Of a DNA stretch of 56,416 nt, positions 1 to 21,948 are shown in pieces (position 1 is the stretch's first letter; each line of letters starts with the position of its first letter). This DNA comes from Bacillota bacterium. Lineage in GTDB: Bacteria; Bacillota; Bacilli; Alicyclobacillales; SLC66. Both the position numbers and the translations under genes were made by a program. The notes below the pieces were generated by a model. That model saw only the letters and a program-made list of their open reading frames with translations, did no database searches and was not told the origin of the DNA. The DNA lies in contig JAJZEE010000007.1 in NCBI GenBank assembly GCA_021805735.1, forward strand, positions 1-56,416, in the 5' to 3' direction.

Positions 1-129
1 TACACTGTAACACTCGAACAAAGTGCATCTGCATAACCCATAAAATGTAAGGCCATCGTTCCAAGAGTGGATAGGTACTTTTTTGCGCCTTCAGAGCAAA
101 AAACAAGAACCATTTTCGTATAAAAAGAG

Positions 130-174
130 AAGGTGATCGGGTTATGGCGCGACATGCCATAACCCGATCACCTT
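130..174 (-). terminator. Intrinsic terminator of lexA
   Basis: A perfect 19-bp inverted repeat (130-148 and 156-174, 7-nt loop) is followed in the minus direction by a T-rich run (complement of 121-129). The lexA stop codon lies inside the stem, so the hairpin forms at the very end of the message. No T-run follows it on the plus strand. Confidence 0.85.
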
Positions 175-759
175 GCCCAGTATGGTGACGCGCGAAAATA
201 TCGTGGGTTGCACCGTCCTGTTTTCCCGCTGCAGCCGGACATGGTTCTTCTCCTTAAAAAAGCGTTTCATTGCAGCTTCGTCGTCTTCAGTCACGGCTAC
301 CACGATATCGCCGTTGTCCGTCGCAGCCTGACGCCTCACATATACGAGGTCGCCGTCATGGATCCCGGTGTCGATTATGCTGTCTCCCAGCACCCGCAGG
401 GCGAAGACGTCGCGATCGTCGCGGTCATGGGGCGGAGCCTGCAGGTACTCTTCCATGTCTTCGACCGCCGTGATGGAACTGTTGGCGGTCACCTTGCCCA
501 GCAGGGGAATCGCGCCCTGGACTGGCTGCGCGTGAAACGAGTCGTCGATAATCTCAATCGCATGTGGTTTTGTTGCGTCTCGCCGGATCAGCCCGCGCTG
601 TTCCAGTTTCGACAAATGGCCATGGACCGTGGATGTGCTGGTCAATCCGACGGCGCCTCCGATCTCAAGGACAGACGGCAGATACCCTCGCGCACTTACC
701 GCCTCTTTTATGTTAGATAGAACCGCTTCCTGCTTGGCTTTGGCACTGGCTCGAGCCAT
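142..759 (-). CDS. lexA: LexA repressor (SOS regulator), unusual cleavage site
   Basis: The 205-residue protein matches LexA over its full length: an N-terminal winged HTH (residues about 28-60, with STVHGHLSKLE) and a C-terminal S24 peptidase domain with the catalytic serine in GDSIID (S127) and lysine in AAMKRF (K165). It would repress SOS genes until RecA-stimulated self-cleavage. The start at 759 is chosen because AAAGGAG lies 9 nt upstream; an upstream in-frame ATG at 849 lies beyond the likely promoter. The self-cleavage dipeptide, normally Ala-Gly, is A92-N93 here, within GKVTANSS. A promoter TTGCAT-N18-CATACT (822-827, 798-803, minus strand) overlaps the LexA-box-like palindrome at 825-838, suggesting autoregulation. 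It could also be a second LexA paralogue. Confidence 0.93.
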   Translation of the reverse strand: MARASAKAKQEAVLSNIKEAVSARGYLPSVLEIGGAVGLTSTSTVHGHLSKLEQRGLIRRDATKPHAIEIIDDSFHAQPVQGAIPLLGKVTANSSITAVEDMEEYLQAPPHDRDDRDVFALRVLGDSIIDTGIHDGDLVYVRRQAATDNGDIVVAVTEDDEAAMKRFFKEKNHVRLQRENRTVQPTIFSRVTILGKVIGLWHVAP

Positions 760-797
760 CCGCGCAGTCTCCTTTCTATCCAAGTTCTGCTGGACAG

Positions 798-838
798 AGT
801 ATGGCACGTCATGGCCAATGGATGCAAACACATGTTTG
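798..838. promoter_or_regulatory. LexA box candidate and lexA promoter
   Basis: CAAACACATGTTTG at 825-838 matches 13 of 14 positions of the Bacillus LexA consensus CGAACRNRYGTTYG. It overlaps the -35 of the lexA promoter (minus strand -35 TTGCAT at 822-827, -10 CATACT at 798-803, 18-bp spacing) and lies just before the ribosome binding site of the divergent small gene at 854. One operator could therefore control both genes. The plus-strand promoter is not obvious. Confidence 0.65.
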
Positions 839-853
839 AAGGAGGGCAAGTCA

Positions 854-955
854 ATGACCTCCGGGGTTCTGTTTACCGCCTATCTGGCGATCGTCAACGC
901 AGTACGGGCCAGACGGCGGCGCAAGCGTTCCGTACGCGAACGCACACTGCTGTAA
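854..955 (+). CDS. Putative SOS-controlled 33-aa membrane micropeptide
   Basis: A 33-codon reading frame has GGAGGG 7 nt before its ATG and is followed by a strong intrinsic terminator at 1016-1057, so a short transcript is likely. The peptide has a short hydrophobic N-terminal stretch (LFTAYLAIVNAV) followed by a very arginine-rich tail (RARRRRKRSVRER). The gene is divergent from lexA, the position held in Bacillus by yneA (SOS division inhibitor), but it has no LysM domain and is not YneA. Small SOS-induced membrane peptides such as TisB are a functional analogy only. An inverted repeat GCGTTC-N7-GAACGC (925-943) lies within its coding end. Function is unknown. Confidence 0.5.
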   Translation: MTSGVLFTAYLAIVNAVRARRRRKRSVRERTLL

Positions 956-1015
956 GTAGAAATGTATTTACATTCGTCTTCTTTTCCACTACGATGATGT
1001 ACGAAAGTTTGGGTG

Positions 1016-1057
1016 AAGGAAGACGGGGTGGCGGCCCTTAACGTCTTCCTTTTTTAT
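1016..1057 (+). terminator. Intrinsic terminator after the small gene
   Basis: AAGGAAGACG at 1016-1025 pairs with CGTCTTCCTT at 1042-1051, followed by TTTTATTTT. The only gene it can serve on this strand is the 33-codon frame at 854-955. Confidence 0.8.
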
Positions 1058-1077
1058 TTTCACTTTCGCCGCTCCTT

Positions 1078-1127
1078 AGACAATGAATGGCGTTACAGCC
1101 TCTGGCTGCACACGCCATTCATTGTCT
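1078..1127. repeat. Long perfect hairpin without T-run
   Basis: A perfect 16-bp inverted repeat (1078-1093 and 1112-1127) encloses a second 5-bp stem, CAGCC/GGCTG, at 1096-1100 and 1104-1108. Neither side has a T-run, so it is not a standard terminator. The rest of 1128-1305 shows no gene. Confidence 0.6.
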
Positions 1128-1305
1128 CCTACCACCGTCTCCCTAGGCAAGAAAAAGTCTCTTTTTCCCCGACAGGGAGACGGAGAGGCAACAGCTGCGG
1201 ACGTTGTCCAACTCATATTGATCACCCCAACTATTTGACGATGTGGAACGAAGTGAGGTTACAAAACGAATTCCATGATTAACGTGAACGAACGATCATC
1301 TTTTG

Positions 1306-5038: not shown

Positions 5039-5419
5039 TCACACGGGCATTCCGATGCCCTTGGACAGTTGGTACACCACGTACTGATTGAGGCTAACGC
5101 CTTCTTCACGCGCCTTCTCGACCAAAGTCTTGTGAAGAGACTTCGGCAAGCGAGCGATGAACTTGCCGGAGAATTCTTCTGGATCGGCAGTCGGCTCAGG
5201 GATTGCGACGCCCATGTCCAAAGCGGCCATGAGCCATTCCCGTTTCGCATCTTCGATCATGCGGTACGCGTCTTCCACCGTTTCTCCTTGACTGATGCAG
5301 CCTGTCAATTCATTGATTCTCACAGCAAATCCACCTTCTGGCGACGGAACCAGCGTAATCGAGTACGGGAGCGACAGGTAGTGATCGAGTGATCCCTTTT
5401 CCAGTGGCTTCTTCTCCAT
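5039..5419 (-). CDS. hicB: HicB-family antitoxin
   Basis: The 126-residue protein has the HicB pseudo-RNase H fold at its N-terminus (YSITLVPSPEGGFAVRINELTGCISQGETVEDA) and a ribbon-helix-helix C-terminus (FIARLPKSLHKTLVEKAREEGVSLNQYVVYQL). The first part would bind and block HicA, the second would bind operator DNA. Its ATG overlaps the hicA stop by one base (TAATG), so both are made from one message. The length is typical of HicB proteins with a fused DNA-binding tail. Confidence 0.9.
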   Translation of the reverse strand: MEKKPLEKGSLDHYLSLPYSITLVPSPEGGFAVRINELTGCISQGETVEDAYRMIEDAKREWLMAALDMGVAIPEPTADPEEFSGKFIARLPKSLHKTLVEKAREEGVSLNQYVVYQLSKGIGMPV

Positions 5420-5649
5420 TAGAGCAGACCCTCCTTTTTGAGCGTCTCGATAATCATGTGGACATATGCTTCATTTACGTAGGGGCGATGAATCGGTACA
5501 GTAAGAGGCTTCATTCCTGGCTTGCGGAACGTGTAATGGCTCGAACCGCCATTCGGTTGATGTATCGTGTAGCCAAAGCGCTGAAGGATTTTGGCGAGAT
5601 CCGAAAACACCACGGTCTTAGGATTTTGCTGGATCGCCTCCACCGTCAT
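5419..5649 (-). CDS. hicA: HicA-family mRNA interferase toxin
   Basis: A 76-residue HicA toxin: the double-stranded-RNA-binding-like fold contains the conserved GGSSHYTFRKPG with the catalytic histidine at residue 38, and the end (YVHMIIETLKKEGLL) is typical. It cleaves mRNA when not bound by HicB, encoded by the overlapping next gene. The start ATG at 5649 lies about 17 nt after GAGGAG, a long spacing, so translation may be weak. ATGGTATCAT covers the start codon region and recurs at 5801-5810. Confidence 0.9.
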   Translation of the reverse strand: MTVEAIQQNPKTVVFSDLAKILQRFGYTIHQPNGGSSHYTFRKPGMKPLTVPIHRPYVNEAYVHMIIETLKKEGLL

Positions 5650-5810
5650 GGTATCATATATAGTATCTCCTCGCGAACATTATACGCAGTGATAATGGAT
5701 AGACCCGGCGAGACTGGTGCGGGAACCATCGCAAGACGCACGAAATTCCCGGCCCGTCAGGATCGCAGCATCGCAATAACCTGTGCTAATGTTATCCAAT
5801 ATGGTATCAT
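5648..5810. repeat. Two copies of ATGGTATCAT between hicA and the IS element
   Basis: The decamer occurs at 5648-5657, over the hicA start, and at 5801-5810, just before the transposase gene, in the same orientation 153 bp apart. The second copy lies inside CCAATA-N11-TATTGG. Whether the copies belong to the hicAB operator or to the element end is unclear. Confidence 0.35.
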
Positions 5811-5830
5811 CGTATTGGTTGAGAGAGCCA

Positions 5831-6159
5831 ATGGAAGAAAAGTATGTGAGTATCGGAAAGGCCGCGAAGATGCTCGGTGTCAGTATTGGCGCCCTGCGAA
5901 AATGGGAAGAGAACGGTCTATTAACGCCGGAGCGGGCACCGACCGGGCATCGCCGCTATCGTGTCGCCGGGTTACAAAAACTTATGCACGAGAAAGACGA
6001 GTCACCAATTTTACGTACGCCATTTATGCTAGAGTGTAAACGAAAAAGCAAGAAGACGCAGGAAATTTGGACCGTCAAACGGGTCGATTGAGCGCTTATG
6101 CCGCAAAACAAGGCTGGCCTATTTTCGCCGCACGAATCCGTGACGGGAGTGGAACTGAA
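5831..6159 (+). pseudogene. tnpA: IS607-family serine transposase TnpA, inactivated
   Basis: The N-terminus (EEKYVSIGKAAKMLGVSIGALRKWEENG, then TGHRRYRV) is the MerR-like HTH of IS607 TnpA. After a frameshift near 5985-6005 the resolvase domain continues as TYAIYARV, stop, TKKQEDAGNLDRQ. In the family this reads YARVSTxxQ, with the serine as nucleophile; here TAA (6037-6039) stands exactly at that serine. The domain continues to about 6150 (AAKQGWPIF) and then runs straight into tnpB, so the rest of the catalytic domain is deleted. The gene is dead by three independent lesions. Confidence 0.75.
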
Positions 6160-6858
6160 ATGAAAACGACGTTTCAAGGCGTCTTGCTTGAAGTTGGCGA
6201 GGAGACCGCCCAATGCTTGGACCGCCTGATGCGGAAATGCGGATTCATGGTGCGCTGCGCCTATTGGAGTCAGGCACAAAAGTGGGCGAATTGGAACGCA
6301 TCCTGGCCGCGGAAACCGGATTGCCGCTTCGTTACGCAAAAGACGCCGTGGCCGAAGCCAGGCAACTAATCGCTAGCCAAAAGGTCCTCGTCAAGGAGCA
6401 TTTGCAACTTTGGCAACGACGCGAGAAAAAGACGGCGGCGAGGATACACAAGATCGCGAGACAGGATTCAACCTCACGCAAGTTGCCGGGACTTCGAAGC
6501 AAACTGGAGAAGCAGCAACGCAAGGCGGCGTTTTACCAACAACATGCAGAGCAAAGTACGTTTCCTCCGGTGATTTTCGGAAGCCGTGAACTGTATCTTT
6601 CGCAGTTCAAAGAGGGTGTCAATCAGGCAGCGTGGCGCTATTGCGCCAGGCGATCGAACGGGGCGATCCGTATCAGGTGGAAATCCTGCGCAAGCGCGGG
6701 GTTTATCGCGTTCACGTCACGGTCGAGGAAATGCCCGCCAAGCTGGTGACGTATCCGGTCAACGGATGGGTCAGAAACTGATTGAAAAAACCTTGAAGGG
6801 GAAAGGAGGCAGCCTGGTTTCGTGGTTGGATCAACGCAAGGAACTGCTTCAAGGGTAA
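6160..6858 (+). pseudogene. tnpB: TnpB (IS605 OrfB-like RNA-guided nuclease) remnant
   Basis: Starting at ATG 6160 the sequence MKTTFQGVLLEVGEETAQCLDRL is followed, after a one-base shift near 6262, by RLLESGTKVGELERILAAETGLPLRYA, the usual N-terminal region of TnpB. A second shift near 6640 leads to a strand-rich segment (YQVEILRKRGVYRVHVTVEE). The RuvC nuclease core and zinc finger that should follow are missing, replaced by a short tail near 6765-6858. TnpB proteins are RNA-guided DNA nucleases that support transposon retention. This copy cannot be active. Confidence 0.65.
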
Positions 6859-7068
6859 CGAAAGGCTCCTGCCGCGTACACGTGGAGAAAGGCGCGGCGG
6901 GAAATCTGATCGGGACCGGGTAACACCCGGGAAGATGGCAACACGGATCAGACATAGGAAAGGGCGACTTTTCCGTTCTCTGGTCCGGCTCATCTTCGGT
7001 GGTGCGAGAGCAGCCGCCAAGCGGATGAATCCTGCAAGACCGCGGACTCGAAAGAGTCGAAAGGACCT
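6859..7068 (+). ncRNA. Possible remnant of the element's right-end guide RNA region
   Basis: Downstream of the tnpB remnant several compact hairpins lie close together: CCGGG/CCCGGG around 6915-6931, and GACTC-GAAA-GAGTC (7045-7058) with a GNRA loop. TnpB guide RNAs come from this position. There is no direct evidence of function, and the nuclease gene is broken. Confidence 0.25.
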
Positions 7069-7107
7069 ATGAGAGATTATAGTAGGTTTTTTGAACCAGG
7101 GAAGTTG

Positions 7108-7650
7108 ATGATTCAACTCAAAATAATCCCTGCGACAGCCAACGATGCCGATTCCGTGCGATCAATTCTGTTGGAAGCGGCGCAGTGGATTCACGCCAAA
7201 GGGATTGATCAGTGGCGAATCTCTGAGTTTACGAAGGAACATGTTCTCGACAATATTCAGGATGGCGACGTATTCCTAGCCTATGACGGGAGCGTGCCGG
7301 TAGGCGCGGTGATCCTGCGCAGGCAGCCGGGTCCATTTGACCGCCAGATATGGGGAGAAGGAGCGGATGACCATGCTGCTTATGTGCACCGACTTGCCAT
7401 TCGTACGAAATATCACGGGCAGGGATTGGGCGGCCAGATCCTGGGCTGGGCGGAGGATGAATCCGTTCGGGCAGGCATGGCCTATCTCAGGCTCGACTGC
7501 ATGGCGGACAATGAGGCGCTGAATCGGTACTATCAGCGCTTCGGATTCGTGCATCAGGGCGTACACTCGGCTGGGCGCTTTAGCGTCAGCCGCTATGAGA
7601 AGGCGCTCAGCAATCCGGCAGCAGAGCACTCTGTATTGTCTCTGGCCTGA
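7108..7650 (+). CDS. GNAT-family N-acetyltransferase
   Basis: The 180-residue protein is a standard GNAT enzyme: the acetyl-CoA loop appears as HRLAIRTKYHGQGLGGQILGWAEDE (motif A, R/QxxGxG/A form) and the C-terminal strand region as LDCMADNEALNRYYQRFGF. It transfers an acetyl group from acetyl-CoA to an unidentified small molecule or protein amine. ATG at 7108 has GGGAAG 5 nt upstream; an in-frame ATG at 7069 would add residues encoded by the right end of the IS element. It is monocistronic. Confidence 0.85.
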   Translation: MIQLKIIPATANDADSVRSILLEAAQWIHAKGIDQWRISEFTKEHVLDNIQDGDVFLAYDGSVPVGAVILRRQPGPFDRQIWGEGADDHAAYVHRLAIRTKYHGQGLGGQILGWAEDESVRAGMAYLRLDCMADNEALNRYYQRFGFVHQGVHSAGRFSVSRYEKALSNPAAEHSVLSLA

Positions 7651-11964: not shown

Positions 11965-12066
11965 AAAATGCGCCTGCGGCGATTGTCCGAGATAGACTTT
12001 CATGCTGCTACGCAGCACCAACAACCGGGAAGAAAAATGCGCCTTCGGCGATTTTCCGAGATAGAC
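11965..12066 (+). repeat. Two direct repeats with internal hairpins
   Basis: A 33-bp unit (11965-11997) is repeated at 12034-12066 with two mismatches, period 69 bp. Each unit starts AAAATGCGCC and carries CGCC-TNC-GGCG, flanked in the second copy by GAAAA and ATTTTC so that a longer stem can form. GCTGC-TAC-GCAGC (about 12004-12016) lies between them. They may act as terminators for the GNAT gene. A related sequence occurs near 45940-45975. Confidence 0.5.
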
Positions 12067-21731: not shown

Positions 21732-21830
21732 GCACGTACGGTCCAAGAGAACCAGACTGTTTGCATTCCGTTTGCGATGCTATGATCTGTCTGCGCGCAA
21801 CCATCAGTGGAATGAAGCACCCGCCCAACA

Positions 21831-21900
21831 GGATTCATATGCTGTGCCCGTCGCGAGTTCGGCGTAGCCGTGTCTGAGCAGGGGCACAGCATATGAATCC
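21831..21900. repeat. Long perfect hairpin (19-bp stem)
   Basis: GGATTCATATGCTGTGCCC (21831-21849) pairs perfectly with 21882-21900 across a 32-nt loop. No T-run follows on either strand. It lies between the serS promoter and the divergent epimerase gene. Confidence 0.6.
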
Positions 21901-21948
21901 GGCTGGCAGGAATGACCGTGCGATTTTCCGGGATAGGAGAGGGAACAT

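Follow-up and report, generated by a model that had tools for sequence, protein, structure and literature searches.

The lexA gene at one end of the window (the whole 56,416-nucleotide stretch of DNA that was analysed) is a second copy of this repressor gene in its genome. The copy, termed lexA2, is probably redundant, under relaxed selection and losing function, with the SOS response run by a canonical lexA on another contig, C14. The protein has Asn in place of the glycine that follows the scissile bond, its gene shows accelerated change, and it lies in a truncated fragment of a lexA locus that is flanked by repeats, while the canonical gene occupies the canonical locus. Coordinates of the features are collected in Table 1.

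Table 1. Features of the lexA2 locus, in window coordinates
Feature	Position	Strand	Basis
Repeat adjoining the fragment; other copies in the genome are 98-100% identical	1..127		repeat matches
Entire fragment with homology to the lexA locus of G002; it ends within the divergent neighbour gene	130..952	minus	blastn
Terminator-like inverted repeat overlapping the lexA2 end, identical to that of G002	130..174	minus	alignment
Second lexA copy (lexA2), intact ORF, 205 aa	142..759	minus	TIGR00498
Ala163-Met164-Lys165: catalytic Lys kept, invariant Thr163 replaced by Ala	265..273	minus	alignment
Catalytic Ser127 kept, followed by Ile128 for the invariant Met	376..381	minus	alignment
Ser95 codon TCC replacing the invariant Pro (P3')	475..477	minus	alignment and codons
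Asn93 codon AAC replacing the P1' Gly of the scissile Ala-Gly bond	481..483	minus	codon listing
P27L and R31L, DNA-binding domain, invariant positions	667..681	minus	alignment
Presumed -10 element CATACT; TATACT in three congener loci	798..803	minus	promoter alignment
Altered LexA box CAAACATGTGTTTG; CGAACATGTGTTTG in all three canonical loci	825..838	minus	alignment
Repeated DNA adjoining the other side of the fragment, hairpin at 1078-1127	953..1193		repeat matches

The lexA2 frame opens with an ATG at 759-757 and closes with a stop at 144-142 on the minus strand. Its product matches the TIGR00498 lexA model over the full length with 190.2 bits, above the curated cutoff of 110.95, and contains both LexA domains in Pfam, PF01726 (LexA_DNA_bind) and PF00717 (Peptidase_S24). 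With the single LexA of the congener G002 the protein shares 82% identity, with the canonical LexA encoded in the same genome 77%, and with the LexA proteins of congeners as a group 75-82%. By descent and domains it is a LexA, with a self-cleaving function that is putative. The original prediction, made from this stretch of DNA, was that Ala-Asn stands in place of Ala-Gly in the sequence GKVTANSS, and this is confirmed. The translated cleavage region reads IPLLGKVTA-NSSITAVED, with Ala92-Asn93 as the scissile dyad, and the underlying codons (AAG GTG ACC GCC AAC AGT TCC ATC ACG, for K V T A N S S I T) place AAC where G002 has GGC (Gly). Glycine occupies the P1' column in 31 of 31 other Bacilli LexA proteins compared. 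A misreading of the sequence at the odd site was considered and rejected, given an unambiguous codon and reading frame and an alignment that spans the full gene. The Ser-Lys dyad is retained, as had also been proposed, with Ser127 and Lys165 aligning with Ser119 and Lys156 of E. coli LexA (1JHF). The comparison that had been drawn with Gly85, the position altered in E. coli lexA3 (LexA G85D), is likewise correct, in that Asn93 aligns with residue 85, an Asp in the 1JHF chain. What had been overlooked is the P95S change two residues past Asn93, together with changes adjoining both catalytic residues.

A search of the same assembly (G000, a draft of 3.76 Mb in 170 contigs) for a further lexA was positive, and located a canonical gene at C14:21843-22457. 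The motifs of its product are all canonical (LLGKVTAGNPITAVED, GDSMI, EATVKRF, and a TAG-NP cleavage site with Ala-Gly), its locus is the one shared by the single lexA genes of the congeners G001 and G002, with flanking DNA on both sides that aligns throughout, and it carries an intact LexA box of the Gram-positive type, CGAACATGTGTTTG. A LexA box, CGAACAAATGTTTG, also precedes recA in this genome, 55-76 nt upstream of the likely starts. The components of a normal SOS switch are thus in place independently of the window gene, and with a canonical LexA in the cell a near-normal SOS response is expected. The suggestion that the Asn would alter the strain's entire SOS response is therefore unsupported, given a canonical lexA with Ala-Gly, conserved neighbours and an intact box for its own regulation. 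The narrower part of that interpretation stands, because slow or absent cleavage of the lexA2 protein is plausible with an invariant P1' Gly lost and P95, M128 and T163 altered. More generally, SOS deficiency of a strain cannot be predicted from one odd residue in a lexA gene if the genome also carries a canonical copy.

Loss of constraint in lexA2 extends well beyond the cleavage site. Among the 31 other Bacilli LexA proteins 63 alignment columns are invariant; lexA2 departs at ten of these, while each of the others, tested by leave-one-out, departs at 0-3. The ten departures (I13V, P27L, R31L, R66H, G93N, P95S, M128I, A147T, T163A and P178R) touch the DNA-binding domain, the cleavage site and the catalytic surroundings. 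Unique nonsynonymous changes number 29 on the lexA2 branch and 5 on the sister branch leading to G002 (p=3.9e-5), with no clear difference in unique synonymous changes (21 and 11, p=0.08). A codon model gives an omega of 0.29 on the lexA2 branch against 0.13 elsewhere (likelihood ratio test, p=0.023). The gene thus shows what is expected under relaxed selection, namely a raised rate of amino-acid change on its branch, invariant sites included. In addition, 10 of the 23 inferred amino-acid changes fall in invariant columns, which is about what random placement would give (P(>=10)=0.12). For the branch as a whole an omega of 1 is rejected (p=1e-4), which means that lexA2 was constrained for at least part of it, and the gene cannot be treated as a wholly neutral pseudogene along its entire length of descent. 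No disabling stop or frameshift was found in the lexA2 ORF, and the gene is accordingly not a fully disabled pseudogene. The open frame is a weak argument for function, however, because a simulation of ~35 neutral substitutions leaves it free of stops 42% of the time. A constrained phase in the donor lineage, followed by neutral decay, fits both the rejection of omega=1 and the roughly random placement of the changes with respect to invariant columns.

Since the changes span the whole protein and the promoter, where the box has gone from CGAAC to CAAAC, we regard the oddity of lexA2 as decay and not as a specific change of the cleavage site. Remodelling targeted at the cleavage machinery alone was rejected, as the DNA-binding domain and other regions are also changed. 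The gene is presumably poorly expressed, and its protein, if made, would probably cleave itself slowly or not at all, judging from the residues replaced. Repression by this protein may also be weak, because helix 2 of the DNA-binding domain and the promoter are altered; the recognition helix, VGLTSTSTVHGHLSKLEQRG, is the same as in the canonical copy. Set against decay are the intact ORF, the unchanged Ser127, Lys165 and recognition helix, and the rejection of omega=1, and persisting selection on lexA2 is possible.

One form that such selection could take is retention of lexA2 as a non-cleavable, lexA3-like repressor that acts beside the canonical LexA at the same boxes, and that damps the SOS response or keeps a few promoters off after damage. 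The shared recognition helix would suit this role, as would the joint alteration of the cleavage site and catalytic surroundings (G93N, P95S, M128I and T163A) and the constraint evident on the branch. Yet the DNA-binding half is also changed at invariant sites (I13V, P27L, R31L and R66H), A147T and P178R lie outside the cleavage machinery as well, the -10 element and LexA box of the promoter are altered, and only one of the three genomes of the genus has the gene. We consider this reading, the main alternative to decay, unlikely, and similarly doubtful is the two-LexA system that it would imply, in which a non-cleavable paralogue co-occupies SOS boxes with its cleavable partner, setting a floor on the SOS response. 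Should lexA2 still be functional, it would offer a natural test of the effect of a non-cleavable LexA beside a normal one.

The surroundings of lexA2 bear on its origin. Homology to the lexA locus is limited to the ~0.82-kb fragment, which is closest to G002 (86.7% identity over 775 nt and 93.8% over 48 nt by blastn). Copies of the repeat at window 1-127 sit mostly at or near contig ends, from which we infer that it is the end of an insertion sequence, and the repeated DNA on the other side of the fragment has copies in this and related genomes. The oxidoreductase gene adjoining the fragment has no counterpart in G001 or G002, and the contigs of these congeners that match the window contig stop or lose similarity before the lexA side. 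G001 and G002 each have a single lexA. It is very improbable that the fragment comes from another organism in the sample through a binning or assembly artefact. The draft state of the assembly, and the position of lexA2 beside repeats and 142 bases from a contig end, would allow such an error, but most of the 39 kb of the contig that was examined matches G001 or G002 at 87-98%, and a foreign contig was rejected on the ground that most of it matches both congeners. Furthermore, a truncated fragment in a non-canonical context cannot be just the main lexA locus of another species, and the 953-1086 portion of the repeat has sequence differences from the copy on C7 (96% identity), which argues against a false join through the repeat.

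Other elements of the window were recorded along with the locus. Adjacent palindrome-like 14-mers, TGAACAAAAGTTCA and TGAAAATGTGTTCA, lie at 1335-1363 upstream of genes for a CrtI-like oxidoreductase and a TetR protein, and are probably a TetR operator, though TGAACAAAAGTTCA resembles a LexA box. A HicA/HicB toxin-antitoxin pair is encoded on the minus strand at 5039-5649, and segments at 5766-7112 that match repeated DNA on many contigs of the genus are probably insertion-sequence remnants. The sequence at 11991-12066 belongs to a dispersed repeat of ~75-115 bp, for which no Rfam match was found; it recurs about 40 more times in the genome and many times in each of the two congeners. Another dispersed family, with units of ~80-145 bp, is represented at 21791-21937 and has dozens of members in genomes of the genus.

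In the sequence of events that would best account for lexA2 as a decaying redundant copy, the ~0.82-kb fragment came from a lineage related to G002 and was placed in a strain-specific stretch beside repeated, probably mobile DNA, with the flanking repeats presumably having moved it. With the canonical lexA on C14 continuing to run the SOS response, lexA2 would have come under relaxed selection, and Asn at P1' would be among some ten losses at positions that are invariant elsewhere.

The least probable reading is that the Ala-Asn site is functional, with cleavage there or at a nearby bond, which would give the strain two active LexA regulators. The Ser-Lys dyad and the P1 Ala are retained in lexA2, and two lexA genes in one genome have precedents, Leptospira having a LexA2 with Cys-Gly (PMC3789691). 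Against this stand the invariance of Gly at the column in all 31 relatives, and the published natural exceptions among LexA proteins that were compared here, which vary at P1 (Ala, Cys or Gly) and keep the P1' Gly (PMC3091678, PMC3789691). A scan for DNA encoding GKVTAN in 398 genomes of the class, with GRVTAN-type spellings outside its scope, gave 64 matches, and among the 55 of these that were read in context there was no Ala-Asn LexA beyond the window gene, so that a conserved Ala-Asn lineage was rejected. In the family member G005 (C22:1400-1863) a second lexA is in pieces with an internal TAA, and decaying extra copies of lexA may recur in this family.

Compared to the canonical LexA (DinR) of Firmicutes described by TIGR00498, lexA2 has the same two-domain architecture and Ser-Lys dyad, and differs in having Asn for the P1' Gly and nine further departures at invariant columns. 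The E. coli lexA3 protein is substituted at the same alignment position, but with Asp instead of Asn, and lexA2 has many other changes and a normal LexA in the same cell. A parallel in nature is the LexA of Synechocystis PCC 6803, which likewise has an altered scissile dyad and a long branch; there the dyad is Gly-Gly and the catalytic Ser is gone (PMC3091678), whereas lexA2 keeps the Ser-Lys dyad and has a normal paralogue. Leptospira interrogans also has a second lexA, thought to be horizontally acquired, whose LexA2 product shows 28% identity, carries Cys-Gly at the site and is apparently cleaved upon UV exposure (PMC3789691), in contrast to the Ala-Asn found in the lexA2 of the window.
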